DNA of 64,000 nucleotides from Thiothrix subterranea. GTDB taxonomy: Bacteria > Pseudomonadota > Gammaproteobacteria > Thiotrichales > Thiotrichaceae. The stretch covers positions 806,001 through 870,000 of the forward strand of contig NZ_CP133217.1 in assembly GCF_030930995.1 (NCBI RefSeq), in the 5' to 3' direction. A model generated the notes under the pieces. That model saw nothing but the letters and a program-made list of their open reading frames with translations, ran no database searches and was not told the DNA's origin. Shown piece by piece: positions 2,206 to 41,246 of this stretch. Within the stretch, counting starts at the first letter, position 1, and each line of letters opens with the position of its first letter. Both the position numbers and the translations under genes were made by a program.

Positions 2206-3105
2206 TTAATCCCCACCCCAACGCAATTCCCCGCTCTGCTCCAAATCGTACCCCTGATACACCAGCGCGGCTTTTTGGCAACTATCCGCCCGCAAACACT
2301 TCAGCAAATTCTGAAACAGGTGGCGAAACCAAATATTACGCGGCAAGGCAATGTCAAAGGCTTCCCACCCAAACGGGATAAACGCCAGCCCGCATTCCAG
2401 CGCGGCGGATCTGGCTCCGGCAGCAATATCCGCCTGCCGCATGGCAATCAATGCGGCTGCTTCGCGCTCCGAATGCGCAATCTGGCTCAGCGGCAACGCA
2501 TCCAAATTCAGCCCCTGACGGCTCAGCATGTCTTGCAAAAAACGCTGTGAACCCGCCCCGCTTTGCCGCCCCGCCCAGCGCAACGCTTGCCGGAAAATCT
2601 GTTCCGGGTCATTTCCCACCCGCGCATACACCTCCGGGTGCAGCATCAACCCCTGTTCGCGGCGAAACAGATGCACCAACACCCACTGGTTTGCCTGCCG
2701 GTACTGTTGCAACAGCGCGGGGTGGCGCAAGTGGCTTTCCTCACTCGGCCCCCAGTGCAAACAACAGGCATCGGCACGGCGCATTTGCAGCAATTTCAAC
2801 CCTGTGCCTGTCCCCGTCGGGAAATAGCTCACCAACCCGTGGGGCGCAATCGCGTTGGTGTATTGCAGCACGGCGCGGTAAAACAGCGGGTCATCGCTGC
2901 CGACAATCGCCAGTCGATCCGACAGTAAGCCGTTGTACGCCGATTCCGTAATCCAGCGGTCAATCAGGTTGCGTGGAAACAGCCATTTGCCGGTAACTTT
3001 GGTGGCAGGAATCTGGTTATCCTTGACCAGTTCATACACTTTTTTCTCATTGAGGTGCAGGTACTCGGCAACTTGTTTCACCGACAAATAGCTGTCGTGA
3101 TTCAT
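2206..3105 (-). CDS. HTH-type regulator with periplasmic-binding-protein-like effector domain
   Basis: A protein of 299 residues. The N-terminal 55 residues are an excisionase/MerR-like helix-turn-helix (YLSVKQVAEYLHLNEKKVYE, then a KVTGKWLFPR wing). The remainder resembles the PBP-like domain found in regulators linked to molybdopterin enzymes, with a TGTGTGLKLL ligand-loop-like segment and an IAAGARSAALECGLAFIPF C-terminal lobe. Its ATG overlaps the fdhD stop by four bases, so the two are translationally coupled. Known proteins of this architecture accompany molybdate or tungstate genes, so a role in sensing oxyanion or cofactor is inferred. The actual ligand is not visible. Confidence 0.75.
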   Translation of the reverse strand: MNHDSYLSVKQVAEYLHLNEKKVYELVKDNQIPATKVTGKWLFPRNLIDRWITESAYNGLLSDRLAIVGSDDPLFYRAVLQYTNAIAPHGLVSYFPTGTGTGLKLLQMRRADACCLHWGPSEESHLRHPALLQQYRQANQWVLVHLFRREQGLMLHPEVYARVGNDPEQIFRQALRWAGRQSGAGSQRFLQDMLSRQGLNLDALPLSQIAHSEREAAALIAMRQADIAAGARSAALECGLAFIPFGWEAFDIALPRNIWFRHLFQNLLKCLRADSCQKAALVYQGYDLEQSGELRWGGD

Positions 3106-3950
3106 GGCACATCCTTAGGCGGGCGGGGCGCAGGAATGGCATCCAACAGCAACCGTTCCGCGCCGTGGTATACCTGAAAATGTTGCCCCTTGGCGCGAGC
3201 AATCAGCAACACCCCTACCTTACGCGCCATTTCCAGCCCCATTTGAGTCACGCCGGAACGCGATAACAGAATCGGAATGCCCATTTGTGCCACTTTGATC
3301 ACCATTTCGGAGGTCAGCCGCCCGGTGGTGTAAAACAGCTTGTCCGGGCCGTCAATAGCATTCAGCCACATGTGTCCGGCAATGGTATCCACCGCATTGT
3401 GCCGCCCGACATCTTCCACAAAACTGAGAATTTGCGTCCCCGCACACAGCGCACAGCCATGCACCGCCCCCGCACGTCGGTAGATTTCATTGTGAGCGCT
3501 CAGGGTCTGCAAGGTCGCATACAGCAGCGATTGGCGCAGGGTAACGGTAGGCAGGCGCAATTGGTCGAATTTTTCCAGCAAATTACCGAATACCGTGCCT
3601 TGTCCGCAGCCGGTCGTAACGGTTTTGCGGCTCAGTTTTTCATCCAGTCCCGCAATGCCCTGATGGGTGGTGACGGCTACCGATTCGGTTTCCCAGTCCA
3701 CCTGAATCGCTTTAATGTGGCGAATATCGCTGATCAGGTTCTGGTTGCGTAACCAGCCCAACACCAGCAATTCCGGCTGGCTGCCCATCGTCATTAGGGT
3801 GAGGATTTCGCGCTTATCGAGGTAAATGGTCAGCGGGTGTTCGGCAGAAATATAGCCGTCACGCGCCTGCCCGTATTCGTCCAAGGCTGTCACCGATACG
3901 GTAGTTTCGCGGGTGGCGGCGCTGAGAAACAGCGAGGGGTGGTTGGTCAT
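3102..3950 (-). CDS. fdhD: formate dehydrogenase accessory sulfurtransferase FdhD
   Basis: FdhD (282 residues) passes sulfur from IscS to the molybdenum cofactor of formate dehydrogenase, which the enzyme needs for activity. Family landmarks include AEHPLTIYLDKRE near the N-terminus, VTTGCGQGTVFGN, and the EDVGRHNAVDTIAG segment. The start at 3950 is chosen over a longer open frame to 4133 because AGGAGA lies 6 bases upstream and the length then fits the family. The E. coli CxxC pair (C121/C124) appears here as C-G-Q-G, with only the first cysteine kept. A separate CALC lies in the HGCALCAG segment. A minus-strand sigma-54-type promoter (3985-4001) precedes the gene. Confidence 0.93.
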   Translation of the reverse strand: MTNHPSLFLSAATRETTVSVTALDEYGQARDGYISAEHPLTIYLDKREILTLMTMGSQPELLVLGWLRNQNLISDIRHIKAIQVDWETESVAVTTHQGIAGLDEKLSRKTVTTGCGQGTVFGNLLEKFDQLRLPTVTLRQSLLYATLQTLSAHNEIYRRAGAVHGCALCAGTQILSFVEDVGRHNAVDTIAGHMWLNAIDGPDKLFYTTGRLTSEMVIKVAQMGIPILLSRSGVTQMGLEMARKVGVLLIARAKGQHFQVYHGAERLLLDAIPAPRPPKDVP

Positions 3951-3984
3951 GGATGTCTCCTGTGGCAATGCTAAGGTTTCAGGT

Positions 3985-4001
3985 AGCAAGAAGCGTACCG
4001 A
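3985..4001 (-). promoter_or_regulatory. sigma-54 (-24/-12) promoter for fdhD
   Basis: Read on the minus strand, CGGTACGCTTCTTGCTA has GG at 3999-3998 and GC at 3987-3986 with exactly ten bases between, close to the TGGCACGNNNNTTGCW consensus. The predicted start of transcription is about 3974, some 24 bases before the fdhD ATG. It diverges from the promoter at 4142. Confidence 0.7.
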
Positions 4002-4075
4002 CGTTGTTCGCCACTTACAGCACGAAAATAGACCCAACAAACGGTCAGATTGTCGCAACCTGTTTGGACACAATA

Positions 4076-4091
4076 GACAAAATGACCCAAC
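4076..4091 (+). promoter_or_regulatory. candidate enhancer-binding-protein site (shared 16-bp motif)
   Basis: GACAAAATGACCCAAC fits the pattern GACAMAATRACCCAAC that also occurs at 17263-17278 and 27423-27438. It lies between the two divergent sigma-54 promoters at a distance usual for an upstream activator site. A second GACCCAAC lies at about 4031. Binding by the regulator encoded at 15875-17203 is inferred. Confidence 0.5.
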
Positions 4092-4141
4092 CTTTCCCCA
4101 TTGCGCGGCGGCAACACTGAGGTAAACCGCCATTCAAACAC

Positions 4142-4157
4142 TGGCACACAACTTGCT
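4142..4157 (+). promoter_or_regulatory. sigma-54 (-24/-12) promoter for the DUF3305-formate dehydrogenase operon
   Basis: TGGCACACAACTTGCT matches the -24/-12 consensus, with GG (4143-4144) and GC (4155-4156) ten bases apart. The predicted transcription start is near 4168, 18 bases before the GTG start of the DUF3305 gene. Confidence 0.8.
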
Positions 4158-4185
4158 GTATAACCACACCACCCGGAGGAACACC

Positions 4186-4671
4186 GTGAGTACACACCCC
4201 CCTGAAACGTTGCCGCAGTCATTGCCGATTGCCGCGATTTTGGAAAAACGCCCGTCCATAAGCCGCTGGGCTGATGCCTATTGGACTGCCACTGGCGTGA
4301 TTGTCGGCGAGCGCTCTGAACCCAACGCCACCTTGCTGCATACCAGCAACGGTATTGCGCAATACCTCTACCCCGGCTTGACGGCGCGGCTGCATTTGGA
4401 TGAATGCGAAAGCTATTACCACAACCTCAAAGCCCCGTACCCCAGCGGCTACATTGTGGCAAGCCTCGCCGCCGACGGCACCCCCACGCCGTACCATTTC
4501 ACCCTAAGCTTTGACGAAGCCAATTCGTATTTGCAAGGCAGTGCGCAAGTGTACCCCGTGCCGCTCCCGCCCGAACTCTATGGCTGGGTAGAAGCCTACG
4601 TGCTGGAACATTACGCCCCCGAACTGCGTAAAAAGCGCCGCCTCACCGACATTAATGACAAAGGGCATTGA
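4186..4671 (+). CDS. DUF3305 domain protein of the formate dehydrogenase locus
   Basis: A cytoplasmic protein of 161 residues with the DUF3305 pattern (ISRWADAYWTATGVIVGE near the N-terminus, YYHNLKAPYPSGYIV centrally, and a C-terminal RKKRR stretch). DUF3305 genes are known from formate dehydrogenase clusters, normally just ahead of a DUF3306 gene, as here. The biochemical role is unknown. A GTG start at 4186 is chosen because CGGAGGA lies 6 bases upstream. The longer frame from 4153 starts before the predicted transcription start. The next gene begins 3 bases after the stop. Confidence 0.8.
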   Translation: MSTHPPETLPQSLPIAAILEKRPSISRWADAYWTATGVIVGERSEPNATLLHTSNGIAQYLYPGLTARLHLDECESYYHNLKAPYPSGYIVASLAADGTPTPYHFTLSFDEANSYLQGSAQVYPVPLPPELYGWVEAYVLEHYAPELRKKRRLTDINDKGH

Positions 4672-4674
4672 TTT

Positions 4675-6666
4675 ATGAGTGATGAAACTTTTTTCACCCG
4701 CTGGGCGCGTCTGAAGCGGGAACGCCCCGAACTCGCTCCCGTTGCTGAACCGAATACTGCCGCCGAACCTGCTATGCCACCTGATGTGGAGGCAATATCC
4801 GCCCCCGCCGCGCCCGCGCCTGAACTGACCGATGCGGATATGCCATCACTGGCAAGCCTCGGCTTCGATTCGGATTACAGCGGTTTCTTTTCCGCCAAGG
4901 TCAGCAGCGAATTGCGCAAAAGTGCCCTACGCAAACTGTTTCACCAACCCGAATTCAATGTGATTGATGAACTCAATGATTACCGTGAGGATTTCACTTA
5001 CTTTGAGCCACTCGGCAATTTGATCACCATTGACATGAAACACCAATTGGAACGCCACGCCCGCCAGCATTTCGACCGCTTATTGGAAGACCATCGCATG
5101 ACACCCGACACCCTCAGCCTTGCCCGTGAACAAGCACTTGCCACGTTGCAGCAATACCCCACAGCGGTGGTTGGTTCCATCGGCTACCAGTCGCAAGGGC
5201 GGCTGCTAATTATCGGCGATGCGTCTGCCCTGCCGCTGGCGGCACAATTGCCCGATACCCTGAAGCCACAGGTTTTGCTGACGGATGACCAAGCCATCGC
5301 CAGCCAGTTTGCTAACGTGGTGATACCCTTGAAGGGGCGCAATCTCAGCATTAGCGGACACTTAGGCGCATTCGCGGTAGATGTGGGGGGAATCGTGATC
5401 ACCTCCGACCTGATTCTCGATTTGCAAACTCCGCCAAGCGTGCAACGCGGTATTCTGCCACCCGGTTATTTTGCCCCCAAGTCAGATGAATTGGCGGACA
5501 CACTGGCGCAATTGCCGGAAATGATCGGTGAATTCAGCAAGCCCCGTTATTTCCATTACGACCCCAGCATTTGCGCCCACAGCAGCAGCGGTTTACACGG
5601 TTGTACCCGCTGTATCGACGCTTGCCCGGCGGAAGCGATTATTTCGATTGGCAGTAAGATCGAAGTGAACCCGAATTTGTGTCAGGGCGGCGGCGCGTGT
5701 GCGGCGGCTTGCCCCAGTGGTGCAATCCGTTACCAATACCCATCACCCGCGCAAACCGTGGATCAATTGCGGATACTGTTGCGCACTTACCATGCAGCGG
5801 GTGGGATTGCCCCTAAAATCCTGTTTCACCGCAGCGCCATGCCGTTGGAGTTGGCGCAATTGCCCCCCACGCTGCTGCCGTTTCCGGTGGAAGAACTTGG
5901 CAGTGTCAGCGCGGAATTGTGGTTGGCTGCCTTGAGTTTCGGCGCAACTCAGGTTTTGCTGTACGACGAAGCGGTCACGCCAGCACAGAGCCGCGACACC
6001 TTGCAGCAACAACTCGCGATTGCTCAGGCGCAATTGCAAGGGCTGGGGTATCCTGCCGATGCCATTCACGTACTGCCGGTGGGAACGCCCGCACAGGGCA
6101 TTAGCCCCGCCCCGGTAATGCCGCTGTTGACGCCCGCAACGCAAGGCGGCATGAACGATAAACGCCAGCAATGGCGGGTTGCCCTCGACCATTTGTACCG
6201 CTTTGCCCCGGCAATGCCAGCCAGCATTGCCCTGCCCGCAGGCGCACCGTTTGGCACACTCGTCATTAACAAGGACAGTTGTACGCTGTGCATGGCGTGC
6301 GCCACCATTTGCCCATTCAAAGCCATCGAAGGCGGTGGCAATAAACCGCAATTACGTTTTCATCCCAACCACTGCGTGCAATGTGGCTTGTGTGCGACCG
6401 GTTGCCCGGAACAAGCCATTAGCTTGCAACCGCTCTATATCACCGACCCCGAACAGCGGCGCTTAGCGCAAGTGCTGCACGAAGAACCCCCGTTTTGCTG
6501 TGTGCAATGCGGCAAACCGTTTGGCAGTCAAAGCGCGATTAAAACCATGCTCAGCCGCCTTGCCAGCCACCCCATGTTCCAGAACCCGCGTGCCTTGCGC
6601 CGCTTGGAAATGTGCGAAGACTGCCGGGTGATGGATGTGGTGCAAGACCCGGCAGCAATGGGCTAG
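4675..6666 (+). CDS. DUF3306-ferredoxin fusion protein, multi-cluster 4Fe-4S
   Basis: A 663-residue protein. Residues 1 to about 150 match DUF3306 (FFTRWARLK at the start, LTDADMPSLASLGFDSDYS, LRKSALRKLFHQPEFNVID). The rest is a polyferredoxin. CxxC-type cluster sets lie near residues 300-325 (GCTRCIDACPAEAI), 335-350 (GGGACAAACPSGAI), 535-550 (CTLCMACATICPFKAI) and 565-580 (CVQCGLCATGCPEQAI), plus a late FCCVQCGKPF. In related loci DUF3306 and the 4Fe-4S protein are usually separate adjacent genes, so this is a fusion. An electron-transfer or maturation role beside formate dehydrogenase is inferred. No signal peptide is seen. Confidence 0.82.
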   Translation: MSDETFFTRWARLKRERPELAPVAEPNTAAEPAMPPDVEAISAPAAPAPELTDADMPSLASLGFDSDYSGFFSAKVSSELRKSALRKLFHQPEFNVIDELNDYREDFTYFEPLGNLITIDMKHQLERHARQHFDRLLEDHRMTPDTLSLAREQALATLQQYPTAVVGSIGYQSQGRLLIIGDASALPLAAQLPDTLKPQVLLTDDQAIASQFANVVIPLKGRNLSISGHLGAFAVDVGGIVITSDLILDLQTPPSVQRGILPPGYFAPKSDELADTLAQLPEMIGEFSKPRYFHYDPSICAHSSSGLHGCTRCIDACPAEAIISIGSKIEVNPNLCQGGGACAAACPSGAIRYQYPSPAQTVDQLRILLRTYHAAGGIAPKILFHRSAMPLELAQLPPTLLPFPVEELGSVSAELWLAALSFGATQVLLYDEAVTPAQSRDTLQQQLAIAQAQLQGLGYPADAIHVLPVGTPAQGISPAPVMPLLTPATQGGMNDKRQQWRVALDHLYRFAPAMPASIALPAGAPFGTLVINKDSCTLCMACATICPFKAIEGGGNKPQLRFHPNHCVQCGLCATGCPEQAISLQPLYITDPEQRRLAQVLHEEPPFCCVQCGKPFGSQSAIKTMLSRLASHPMFQNPRALRRLEMCEDCRVMDVVQDPAAMG

Positions 6667-37798: not shown

Positions 37799-38233
37799 TT
37801 ACGCAGAAGAAACCCCTCCCAACCTCCCCTTATCAGGGGAGGAGCTAAGAGACAGCACCTCCAATCTGGCGAGGATTTGTTCTATGAGGTGTAGGTAAAC
37901 TCCCTGTGGATTGCCAAGGACTTCATCGTTGGTGTAACGGATGATCTGTAAATCATAAGCGTTGAGGATGCGGGTACGTTCTGTATCGTATTCCATTTTA
38001 TCAGCGTGACTATCGCCATCAATTTCAATGGCTAAAGCTAATGTTGCACAGTAGAAATCAACGATATAACCGTCAATAGGCTTCTGACGCAAAAATTTAA
38101 AACCTGTCAATTGTCTACGGCGCAGAATCTCTGACCACATCTTGTATTCAGCAGGCGTCGGGTTTTTCCGGTTAACCCGTGCTAATGCAACAAGGTTGTC
38201 ATGATAGGGTTGATAACAGCGACTTTTCATCAT
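37799..38233 (-). CDS. DUF559 (Vsr-like) endonuclease domain protein
   Basis: A 144-residue protein of the DUF559 group, a PD-(D/E)xK-like fold akin to very-short-patch repair endonucleases. Landmarks are PTPAEYKMWSEILRRRQLTG, FKFLRQKPIDGYIVDFYC and LAIEIDGDSHADKMEYD, where the acidic residues and the glutamate should form the metal site. The C-terminal tail (SSSPDKGRLGGV) is encoded by the left arm of a perfect 38-bp inverted repeat that brackets the gene. The gene is therefore part of a small bounded unit. Confidence 0.82.
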   Translation of the reverse strand: MMKSRCYQPYHDNLVALARVNRKNPTPAEYKMWSEILRRRQLTGFKFLRQKPIDGYIVDFYCATLALAIEIDGDSHADKMEYDTERTRILNAYDLQIIRYTNDEVLGNPQGVYLHLIEQILARLEVLSLSSSPDKGRLGGVSSA

Positions 38234-38332
38234 TTAACGTTAGCAAAAGAACGCCATGAGGCTCAAATCAAACCGCTCAAAGGCATCCATTCTTGCTCCT
38301 CCCCTGATAAGGGGAGGTTGGGAGGGGTTTCT
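37808..38332. mobile_element. 525-bp unit with perfect 38-bp inverted repeats around DUF559
   Basis: The left arm (37808-37845) and the right arm (38295-38332) are exact reverse complements over 38 bases. Each arm holds an inner palindrome CTCCCCTTATCAGGGGAG. Only the DUF559 gene lies between. The layout resembles a miniature transposon with its own nuclease, but no transposase and no flanking duplication are seen. Confidence 0.75.
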
Positions 38333-38367
38333 TTTTTAACATCAGTAACATAACTTAATAAGGTTTA

Positions 38368-41091
38368 TCAACCGCCCACCAACCCCCGATACCGCTCAAA
38401 CAACCACGTCAGCCGTTCCATATCACTGCCAAACTTTTCCTTGCGGTAACACTGATCCACCGCTTTATCCAATGCGGTATGGGCTTTGCGCAAATCCGGC
38501 GGCATGGCAGTCGGGTCGTACATATCCGCCAAGGTTGAGGTCGGGTAATTCTTCCGCGCATCCAGCACCGCTTGCGCGGCGGCTTCCACCTTTTTGCGCT
38601 GCTTGTCGTCGGCATCAGGCCACGGAAAATTGTTGTAAACCAGCTTGGCAGAATAGCGGTAACGGCTTTCCAAACGTCCACAAACGGCGCTCATCCAAAC
38701 CATGTTCATTTTGGCTTCCAGCACACCAAACTCATAGAGTGTTGCATTAGGAACCATATTATTAAGGTCGGTAGAAATGGTATTTTGGTCAAAAAATCCC
38801 ATTGGTACATACTCACGACGCTCTGATGACACCCTTGGAATCAGTACATAGCTGGATGGATTTTTTGTGTCACGAAACTGTGTTGGACACTCAGCTAATT
38901 TTCTCGCACCAGCATCTATGCTGTTTAACCTCATTTCTTTAACTTGAGCAACACGCTTCATGACTTCTGGCAAGGCACGCAATTCATTGGGCTGAATACC
39001 GACTAACCACAAACACCAACGCTCCTTGCCGTTAATGAATTCTTCCGCACCAAGCAGCGGTTTTAACCATTTTGCAGCAAGGGGTTCTTTTTCCAATAGC
39101 GCGGTTTTTTCATCAGGCGATAGCAATAAAAATCCACCATCCACCGGCTTATTACCGTACACAACTTCAGACACGTTACACAGTGGTTTTGTCCGATTAT
39201 CAACCACTATATCGGGTGCGTCGATCAGATAGGGATTGATATTATTGGCAGCAATTTCGACAGGTTCGCCCTTGATATTCGGGTAATCGAAAATGCGTTT
39301 GCCCTCAGTATCAAAGTTGGCAAACCCCACGATCACCACATGCACCGCCGCTTTACCGCGTGCTTCAGAATCCCACGAAAAGGTACGGTGCGCAAAATGC
39401 AGACGGATACCCTGATTCAGCAGCGGTTGCCATAACGGTGCAACCTGTTCGCCTTGCGTAATCGAATTGGTAGAAACAAACGCCACCGTGGTACGTGTTC
39501 CCCGTATAAACTGCGCCGCTTTGTAAAACCAGCAGGTCACGTAATCCAAACTTTTATAGTTTTTCAACGTGCTGAACAGCTTATCCATATCGGCATTTTG
39601 CGCCTCACCACGGAAATTTTTACCCACAAAGGGCGGGTTGCCGATGATGTGGTTCAGGTTGGCAGGCTTGATCACCGTCGCCCAATCGAGTTGCAGCGAA
39701 TTGCCAATCACAATATGCGCGGAAGATTTCAACGGCAGCAAATCCGGTTCACGCCCAAACTGACGCGCAAATTCACGATTCATCTGATGCTGCGTCAGCC
39801 ACATCGCCACTTCCGCAATCCGCACCGGCCATTCCTCAATCTCAATGCCATGAAAATGTTCCAGCTTAATCGTCGGCTCGACCGTAATATCCAACCCCCG
39901 ATGCGCGTCACTGTGCTGCGCCTGCAACACCGCCAACTCCAACAAACGCAATTCGCGGTAGGTAATGATCAGAAAGTTACCGCACCCACATGCCGGATCA
40001 AGGAACTGCAACGCCGTCAAACGCTGCTGAAACGCCGCCAACTTCTTACGCTTGTCACGATTGCCACCCTGTTGAATCGCGCTGAATTCCGCCCACAACG
40101 CATCCAAAAACAACGGCTTAATCAAGCGCAAAATGTGCGTTTCGCTGGTGTAATGCGCCCCCAATTCGCGCCGCGCCGCCTTATCCATCACCGACTGAAA
40201 CAGCGAACCAAAAATCGCAGGCGAAATACTGCCCCAATCAAAATGCGAACAATCCAGCAAAGCCTCGCGCATCTCCGCATCAAACGACGGCAAATCCAGT
40301 TTTTCACCGAACAAATGACCGTTCACGTAAGGAAAATCGTTCAACTCTGCCAGCAAATGCTTGCCCCGCGCATTCACCGGCTTATCCAAGGTTTGAAACA
40401 GCTTGTTTAGGCGCGAATCAGTGTCAGAACCGTCTGGCGCAGTAAAATGTTCGAGGTAGTTGTAGAACTGGTGGCGGGAAAAAATCCCCGTATCTTCCGC
40501 AAACAAACAGAACAAAATACGCACCAAAAACACTTCCAGCTCATGCCCCGCACAACCCGCATCCTGTAGCGCATCGTGCAGCTTACCCAAGCGTTCCGCC
40601 GCCTTAATATTCAGCGCGTATTCCTGAATGCTTTCCCCGTGATTGTCCAACCCCGCCATGAAATCAAAAAACTCAATTTTGTCGGGCAAGTCCTCAATGG
40701 CAATGTCATGCTCCAAACGCCGATCAAGGTCGTACAATTTGAAGCGAGCAAAATCCGACAACAACACGTAACGCGGGCGGTCACGTTGGTCTTTTATCTG
40801 CTGAAAATAATCGAAGGCTTGCGATTTGGCTTTATCGAGGGATTTACCGCGTGATTTGTGTTCAACCAACAACACGCCTTTCCAAAACAGGTCAATAAAG
40901 CCTTTGGTGTTATCGGTGCGCTCGACGGCATGTTCAAACGCCGCGACACTCTTACGATTGACCCCGAAAATGGCAAAAAACGCATCCCAAAAGGACTTGG
41001 CTTCGGCTTCCTCCCGCGTTTCATTGCCCCATTCTTTGACGAACGCCAGCGCGTTGCCACGGATAGTCTTGCGGTTGGAAAGTGCTGCCAT
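38368..41091 (-). CDS. MmeI-like (type IIG/IIL) restriction-methylation enzyme
   Basis: A 907-residue single-chain enzyme. The N-terminus holds a PD-ExK nuclease motif (Asp67, Glu77, Lys79 in FIDLFWKGVLLVEHKSRGK). A helical linker is followed by an N6-adenine methyltransferase with FLDPACGCGNFL and NPPF (HIIGNPPFVGK), then a target-recognition part and a C-terminal helix bundle. The architecture and order fit the MmeI family, which cuts and methylates with one polypeptide. Other possibilities are BREX/DISARM-like methylases, which lack the N-terminal nuclease motif. The start at 41091 (MAALSNRKTIRGNALAF) is preferred over 41166 because it is the family's usual opening. Confidence 0.85.
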   Translation of the reverse strand: MAALSNRKTIRGNALAFVKEWGNETREEAEAKSFWDAFFAIFGVNRKSVAAFEHAVERTDNTKGFIDLFWKGVLLVEHKSRGKSLDKAKSQAFDYFQQIKDQRDRPRYVLLSDFARFKLYDLDRRLEHDIAIEDLPDKIEFFDFMAGLDNHGESIQEYALNIKAAERLGKLHDALQDAGCAGHELEVFLVRILFCLFAEDTGIFSRHQFYNYLEHFTAPDGSDTDSRLNKLFQTLDKPVNARGKHLLAELNDFPYVNGHLFGEKLDLPSFDAEMREALLDCSHFDWGSISPAIFGSLFQSVMDKAARRELGAHYTSETHILRLIKPLFLDALWAEFSAIQQGGNRDKRKKLAAFQQRLTALQFLDPACGCGNFLIITYRELRLLELAVLQAQHSDAHRGLDITVEPTIKLEHFHGIEIEEWPVRIAEVAMWLTQHQMNREFARQFGREPDLLPLKSSAHIVIGNSLQLDWATVIKPANLNHIIGNPPFVGKNFRGEAQNADMDKLFSTLKNYKSLDYVTCWFYKAAQFIRGTRTTVAFVSTNSITQGEQVAPLWQPLLNQGIRLHFAHRTFSWDSEARGKAAVHVVIVGFANFDTEGKRIFDYPNIKGEPVEIAANNINPYLIDAPDIVVDNRTKPLCNVSEVVYGNKPVDGGFLLLSPDEKTALLEKEPLAAKWLKPLLGAEEFINGKERWCLWLVGIQPNELRALPEVMKRVAQVKEMRLNSIDAGARKLAECPTQFRDTKNPSSYVLIPRVSSERREYVPMGFFDQNTISTDLNNMVPNATLYEFGVLEAKMNMVWMSAVCGRLESRYRYSAKLVYNNFPWPDADDKQRKKVEAAAQAVLDARKNYPTSTLADMYDPTAMPPDLRKAHTALDKAVDQCYRKEKFGSDMERLTWLFERYRGLVGG

Positions 41092-41246
41092 GTGAATAAG
41101 CCCAGAATCGAAAGCGAGGATAGTAGCGCAGAAAGCCAGCAGCGAGGAATAGCGCCACCCGTCCATTTTTCTGCTGGAAGTCTGAAACTTTCCGCAATTA
41201 TGCTAAACTGATCGGCACTTTTTGAGACTGAAAACGAGAGTTCGAC

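Follow-up and report, generated by a model that had tools for sequence, protein, structure and literature searches.

Small palindromic repeats are common in the intergenic DNA of bacteria, and to our knowledge several families of them have no known mover. Here we describe a unit in Thiothrix subterranea, in which a gene of the DUF559 nuclease family lies between the two arms of a perfect inverted repeat. It was found in a stretch of 64,000 nucleotides (RefSeq assembly GCF_030930995.1, contig NZ_CP133217.1, positions 806,001 to 870,000 of the forward strand), which is called the window below and whose positions are counted from its first letter. The unit is probably a minimal mobile element, having the DUF559 nuclease as its only gene and G+C-rich palindromic inverted repeats as its ends, and it consists of the following features.

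37807 to 38333, no strand: whole unit of arm, DUF559 gene and arm; 527 bp, perfect inverted repeat, shared at this site with the close relative G060.
37807 to 37845, forward strand: left arm of 39 bp, composed of AAGAAA, the box CCCCTCCC, the spacer AA, the hairpin and AGC.
37813 to 37820, forward strand: C-rich box of the left arm, which copies the stem strand imperfectly; a layout with such a box recurs across phyla.
37823 to 37842, forward strand: hairpin of the left arm, 8-bp stem and 4-nt loop; z -3.0 against shuffles.
38295 to 38333, reverse strand: right arm, the reverse complement of the left arm.
38298 to 38317, forward strand: hairpin of the right arm; z -1.8.
38320 to 38327, reverse strand: C-rich box of the right arm, read from the sequence; box layout shared across phyla.
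37799 to 38233, reverse strand: DUF559 nuclease gene, 144 aa (PF04480, E 3.4e-30), its C-terminal tail encoded by the left arm.
37880 to 38191, reverse strand: DUF559 domain, predicted to have a Vsr-like PD-(D/E)XK fold (model pLDDT 90.8; best PDB matches 3hrl and 3r3p).

The two arms (37807-37845 and 38295-38333) are 100% complementary over 39 bp each and enclose 449 bp, which confirms the perfect inverted repeat that a first-pass annotation of this DNA had reported around the DUF559 gene, the 38 bp given there being one base short. The arms had further been called palindromic themselves, and this holds for the inner hairpin (-9.7 and -10 kcal/mol as DNA in the two arms) and not for the outer part, where AAGAAA, the box and AA are not hairpin. 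Two other claims stood as they were made: the last codons of the DUF559 gene run through the left arm, the TAA stop lying just beyond it, and the list of open reading frames (ORFs) contains no transposase and no other plausible gene between the arms. The Pfam matches of the window gene are DUF559 and a sub-threshold REase_MTES_1575, and nothing else. For a 17-bp core of the arm, up to three mismatches being allowed, the expectation in the window is 0.12 occurrences, against two observed; since the counts of arm cores exceed expectation as well as the reversed controls, the inverted repeat of the window is not a chance product. The unit is bordered by a rubredoxin gene and by an MmeI-type restriction-modification gene (38368-41166), and a neighbourhood of restriction or methyltransferase type (MmeI-type, PglX, DUF1156) was seen at the window, L375 and L376.

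Gene-less copies of the arm, for which the first-pass annotation had proposed a search, are present both in the host genome and in its relatives. In the host genome (G000, 4.4 Mb) a 20-bp arm core with up to two mismatches occurs at 33 places and the palindrome core of the window arm at 36, the reversed control giving 0 each time. These 36 cores form 28 clusters, eight of which hold two intact cores, the DUF559 unit being one of the eight. Among the 24 clusters with an extracted locus, all of which were read, 16 are gene-less inverted pairs, each about 100 bp long, 7 are single or shortened copies, and the remaining one is the window unit; the second arm of the gene-less pairs is frequently diverged. 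Two sub-families of pairs were recognised by eye, in which variation between copies affects the left and the right arm alike; this suggests that gene-less pairs spread as whole units. One such pair (L006, G000:C2:11171) lies near what we read as a CRISPR-like array, since in G060 dozens of matches to its flank were obtained, short and in tandem. Across the genus the arm type of the window, named type D below, was found in all 16 genomes, with 3 to 53 copies in each.

Beyond the genus, flanking repeats were sought with an inverted-repeat score computed between the two 400-bp flanks of each DUF559 domain, with a cut-off of at least 16. PF04480 was found in 98 of 249 Pseudomonadota genomes, and of the 71 with a match at E <= 1e-20, 60 are represented in the set by one locus each (11 are not included). 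Flanking inverted repeats were detected at 37 of these 60 loci, whereas of 1200 random positions taken within them 3 scored as high, and small genes served as a second control (2 positives among 375, and 1 among 106 with gaps on both sides, this one adjoining a second DUF559 gene). In a multi-phylum set drawn from GTDB, 34 of 75 loci were positive, against none of 1125 random positions, the set having had 80 loci before five at contig edges (L281, L257, L288, L291 and L294) were left out; positives came from Cyanobacteria, Ignavibacteria, SAR202 Chloroflexi, Phycisphaerales, Nomurabacteria, Rickettsiales and Oscillospiraceae. Within the genus the figure is 22 of 37; of the 41 matches there, four were set aside, namely that of the window gene, two that lie in ORFs of about 1540 aa, and one fragment that had been fetched with L234. 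Chance and a bias of small genes were considered as the source of the flanking repeats, and both were rejected on the random-position and small-gene controls. The palindromic ends that the first-pass annotation had proposed to look for on DUF559 genes of many genomes are thus found.

A simpler count, of C/G-skewed hairpins within 250 bp, gave hairpins on both sides, one side and neither side at 31, 26 and 3 Pseudomonadota loci, respectively (1, 53 and 546 of 600 random positions), and at 43, 23 and 9 multi-phylum loci (0, 15 and 735 of 750 random positions). DUF559 genes devoid of palindromic ends, the case which the first-pass annotation had named as fatal to its idea, do therefore occur, at 3 of 60 and 9 of 75 loci by this count, and all the others have a hairpin on at least one side. 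In a plasmid collection palindromes were seen by eye near all 10 DUF559 loci, 3 of which reached a score of 16.

These ends share a layout as well as a position. Of 201 hairpin-bearing sides, 123 have a C-rich box beside the stem, which resembles the stem strand itself and is separated from it by a three-base spacer, mostly pyrimidine-purine-purine (Y-R-R); the first base is a pyrimidine in 120 sides, purines occupy the second position in 109 and the last in 116, and CAA, TAA, CGG, CAG and TAG are the commonest spacers. One sub-type of box and hairpin occurs in 46 of the 249 genomes, namely in 33 of the 71 whose DUF559 match is strong and in 13 of the 178 others (Fisher p 1e-11), and its reversed control pattern matched once in all 249 genomes. 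Many DUF559 proteins end in tails read from palindromes. L137, L175 and L176, which may be alphaproteobacterial, have a further hairpin between the box and the usual one, and it begins with CGTC. DUF559 as the mover of the CGTC repetitive extragenic palindromic (REP) sequences, which these three loci suggested, was set aside, as a strict and perhaps overly stringent scan for the CGTC tag, stem and CCA-like tail, in which the tail had to follow with no base in between, found none near DUF559 at 60 and 79 loci, against 47 and 3 elsewhere in the same loci. DUF559 relatives are encoded on 36 viral contigs as well (L332-L367).

How the gene relates to its ends can be followed through three arm types, A, B and D, which we assigned by simple motifs. 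A tree with midpoint rooting was built from 38 DUF559 proteins of the order (L079 and L081, which give no clean translation, were left out), and in it each type coincides with one protein clade. The 10 loci of type A represent 8 unrelated flank contexts, seven being unique and three sharing one site, and homology between the loci stops at or near CACTCCGAAC...GTTCGGAGTG. Six loci in which both termini are recognised have units of 533-560 bp, and some have longer terminal repeats. Both type A termini are also found in four gene-less units (the second one in L065, L380, L393 and L396), and two cores were found at 11 of 20 gene-less type A sites, which we picked from G048 and G051. Gene-less L393 of G051 retains 27 codons from the 3' part of the gene, with 88.9% identity to the protein of L073 (blastx E 1e-13), the nucleotide identity being 90.9% over 121 bases with the arm included; as the remnant remains between type A ends, it is direct evidence, at the level of sequence, that L393 arose by internal deletion of a gene-bearing unit. 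No such remnant was found by the same comparison in the gene-less pairs of the host genome. Because of the L393 remnant and of terminal repeats that are shared in unrelated contexts, gene and arms appear to move together, and arm, gene and arm very probably constitute a mobile unit with gene-less derivatives. Copy number follows the cognate gene clearly in type B (p 0.006) and at the borderline in type A (p 0.05).

The same copies could have another history, in which palindromes have another route of spread and are themselves invaded by DUF559, a nuclease gene of homing type for which the palindrome pair serves as landing site. Such a history agrees with the closest characterised relative being a homing endonuclease, with gene-less copies far outnumbering gene-bearing units, and with type D copies being abundant where there is no type D gene. 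It is at odds with the gene remnant inside a gene-less unit, with units of one type sharing their terminal repeats in unrelated contexts, and with three arm types each having its own protein clade, and we judge it unlikely.

Movement of the unit can also be approached by comparing close genomes. G060 is 97-98% identical to the host genome around the window locus, and the flanks of 18 sites, all of them occupied in the host genome, were queried in it, of which 14 were located. From alignments read by eye, 5 sites are occupied in both genomes, 8 in the host genome only, and 1 (L013) has another arm type in G060; the aligned stretches at the compared sites are 85-99% identical. At the unoccupied sites of G060, 9 to about 80 bp of host DNA stand in place of the pair, with no evident target duplication. 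Shared microhomology was noticed by eye at one or two of the eight absent sites (AGAAAC/GGTTTC at L017). At L013 / L211 one and the same spot is taken by a type D pair in the host genome and by a pair with other arms in G060, as though one palindrome pair could take the place of another. G060 also has the window unit, at the identical site, and in G049 the two neighbour genes of that unit enclose a different gene, Fic-like by our reading.

Several observations weigh against a mobile unit of this kind. Gains in the host genome and losses in G060 are indistinguishable, insertion resting on presence and absence, and some of the intergenic differences between the two genomes may be ordinary divergence. 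For the window unit no clean empty site was found in the relatives examined (G060 and G049). No target duplication was found; 3 of 10 pairs of unit ends match over at least 4 bases, where shuffles give a mean of 1.1 and the true outer ends are not fixed. A matched inverted repeat was not recognised in 23 of 60 Pseudomonadota and 41 of 75 multi-phylum loci, most of which have a hairpin on at least one side, and the box, which points toward the gene in 94 of 123 sides, points outward in 29, as it does in the window. The DUF559 flanks in Neisseria are direct repeats and not inverted ones. Finally, if each nuclease kept just its own arm type in motion, copies should track the gene, yet the copy number of type D does not track the type D gene (p 0.58), and G055 and G058 have 53 and 52 type D copies with no D-type gene found; either related nucleases act in trans, or the gene was lost, or there is another mover. 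As to Neisseria, the direct repeats at L371, from a Neisseria gonorrhoeae record, are about 100 bp long, each with a box-hairpin.

The protein itself is a putative nuclease. Residues R8, E15, W19, Q36, D45, F46, E56, D58, G59, H62, D69, R72, R85 and V98 are invariant among 22 diverse DUF559 domains. With the predicted model, Foldseek retrieved first 3hrl, a putative endonuclease of Neisseria (E 1.7e-6), then I-Bth0305I (3r3p, E 1.9e-4) and, weakly, Vsr (E 0.25), and a profile search gave 3hrl at 2.3e-37 and 3r3p at 1.8e-4, proteins at E 0.1-0.7 being taken as chance. The homing endonuclease I-Bth0305I is thus the nearest characterised relative by both profile and fold, and going by the model DUF559 has a conserved nuclease fold and a putative active site. 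In the literature, cited here and below for the parts consulted, YcjD was placed in the PD-(D/E)XK superfamily near Vsr (PMC1189080), a DUF559 gene was assigned to the EDxHD homing family (PMC9403480), and segments of Legionella with transposase and DUF559 genes were described as recombination hotspots (PMC12308824). Membership in a defence system was also considered and dropped, the only padloc match, to a restriction enzyme, being weak (E 1.2e-4).

A nuclease of this fold could equally serve its host, in mismatch repair of the very-short-patch (VSP) kind or linked to restriction, with the palindromes as incidental terminators. The Caulobacter DUF559 protein VsrA, reported as responsible for the SOS response that follows the loss of a solitary cytosine methyltransferase (PMC12907096), is consistent with an active nuclease and lends this idea some weight, as does the MmeI-type gene adjoining that of the window. 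Terminators leave unexplained the matched inverted ends on two sides, the units in multiple contexts and the gene remnants; moreover, there is no terminator-like site at the window arms, nor any Rfam family (the window and L429 were scanned), and the gene is patchily present (98 of 249 genomes). A host function of this sort, with incidental palindromes, is highly improbable.

Another transposase could also move the palindromes, for example a REP-associated tyrosine transposase (RAYT), DUF559 being a passenger. PF01797 (Y1_Tnp, the RAYT/IS200-type family), the family to which the transposase search was confined, does have matches in 10 of the 16 genus genomes, that of the window included, and yet among the 6 genomes with no such match type D reaches 53 copies and type A reaches 46. 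A core of type A, B or D lies within 1.5 kb of 3 of 30 Y1_Tnp loci and of 17 of 21 DUF559 loci, the latter being those scanned among the 37 of the genus, and type A units of 533-560 bp leave little space for a second gene. A foreign mover of this kind seems very unlikely to us.

Units also occur inside other genes. A second DUF559 unit of the host genome, with another arm sequence, lies in frame within a DUF1156 methyltransferase gene of 1143 codons (L431, G000:C2:2600500-2609500, at 2907-6338), and two DUF1156 homologues, from Aeromonas and Methylomonas, are continuous across the insertion point and have no unit. At L135 (7111-9960, reverse strand) a unit lies in frame in the glutamine-amidotransferase half of an asparagine synthase gene, in which a further in-frame palindromic insert was seen by eye. 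A third and weaker DUF559-like match of the host genome (E 2.5e-9) is in an ORF of 1541 aa (L432, G000:C2:2617000-2626000).

In Escherichia coli, YcjD is annotated as a DUF559 protein, its gene is present in K-12 and BL21, and a sapF-ycjD-fabI query was covered by at least 80% in 3362 of 5426 complete genomes. The YcjD of BL21-AI ends in a tail, SPSP, which enters a palindromic region, and a box-hairpin palindrome lies downstream; E. coli genomes have between 1 and 35 places that match a 45-base piece of the ycjD palindrome, the median being 19. According to PMC12817139, ycjD occupies the place of the eef operon of other E. coli. No clean empty site was found between sapF and fabI, and efflux-pump genes are there in the two ycjD-less strains examined, in agreement with PMC12817139.

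From these lines we propose a way in which the unit could move. The nuclease would recognise the ends of box plus hairpin, its own or those of gene-less copies, either as duplex or as extruded hairpin, and would nick or cut at these ends or at the target; host repair would then copy the unit into the break, with some 10 to 80 bp of host DNA replaced and no target duplication. Gene-less pairs would be non-autonomous members, comparable to the REPINs of RAYTs or to the miniature inverted-repeat transposable elements (MITEs) of transposons. It is rather likely that the movement is driven by the DUF559 nuclease through an action on its own ends, and this action may be on a single strand. The self-mobilising or REP-spreading unit of the first-pass annotation is accordingly borne out in its arm-gene-arm units of multiple contexts and in the gene-less unit with a remnant, while the nuclease as driver is what we infer.

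More broadly, and with the balance tipped only a little in its favour, DUF559 proteins may be movers of palindrome-ended mini-elements in a large part of the bacterial tree, as a class distinct from transposases, from RAYTs and from site-specific homing genes, and many G+C-rich intergenic palindromes whose origin is unknown, including those around ycjD, may be copies of such elements that are non-autonomous or have decayed. By travelling with one palindrome layout across phyla, the nuclease gene offers a mover for a set of repeats other than the CGTC REPs. If true, this would give a function to a family still named as a domain of unknown function, and it would explain the DUF559 tails read from palindromes and the in-frame units inside other proteins; ycjD in E. 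coli and VsrA in Caulobacter make the idea testable. No link between the DUF559 family and palindromic repeats was found in the portions of the open-access literature reached by full-text searches, ycjD included. The nearest survey of palindromic repeats (PMC3733652) has no mention of a DUF559 gene in the parts consulted, and the words endonuclease, transposase, RAYT and DUF559 are nowhere in the text of PMC12306157.

Among known systems, the RAYT/REP systems (REPtrons, REPINs) are alike in having a small chromosomal gene for a DNA-cleaving enzyme, cleavage being predicted from sequence in the case of DUF559, between inverted palindromes, and in the many gene-less palindromes and inverted pairs of the genome. 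The RAYT likeness seen by the first-pass annotation therefore extends to architecture and not to membership, since DUF559 is a predicted PD-(D/E)XK nuclease of Vsr fold with no PF01797 match, whereas RAYTs are HUH tyrosine enzymes; the window's arm has no GTAG tag on either strand, DUF559 ends have a C-rich box and a mostly Y-R-R spacer, and the gene-bearing DUF559 unit itself occurs in many contexts. The CGTC REPs are likewise short palindromes, often paired, found in several phyla and said to lack a dedicated transposase, their mover not being known (Di Nocera et al., 2013, PMC3733652), but strict CGTC hairpins were not found near DUF559 genes. EDxHD homing endonucleases such as I-Bth0305I resemble DUF559 in fold, in profile match and as selfish nuclease genes; I-Bth0305I is listed as a mobile intron protein, whereas DUF559 units have palindromic ends, unrelated contexts and gene-less copies, and the spread of type A over many contexts, as judged from its flanks, argues against strict site-specific homing. 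MITEs also are gene-less copies with terminal inverted repeats, one of ours being shown by its sequence to derive from a gene-bearing unit by internal deletion, yet the DUF559 parent encodes no transposase and no target duplication was found. Insertion sequences differ in the same respects: there is no transposase gene between the window arms, type A units hold DUF559, and no target-site duplication was found. The E. coli BoxC repeats, compared by copy number alone, are small palindromic repeats of 22 and 32 copies (PMC2267715), against the median of 19 for the ycjD palindrome. Since the defining marks of RAYTs, insertion sequences and CGTC REPs are absent from it, the DUF559 unit is filed under no known class, while it works like a RAYT/REP system and like the parent of MITEs.
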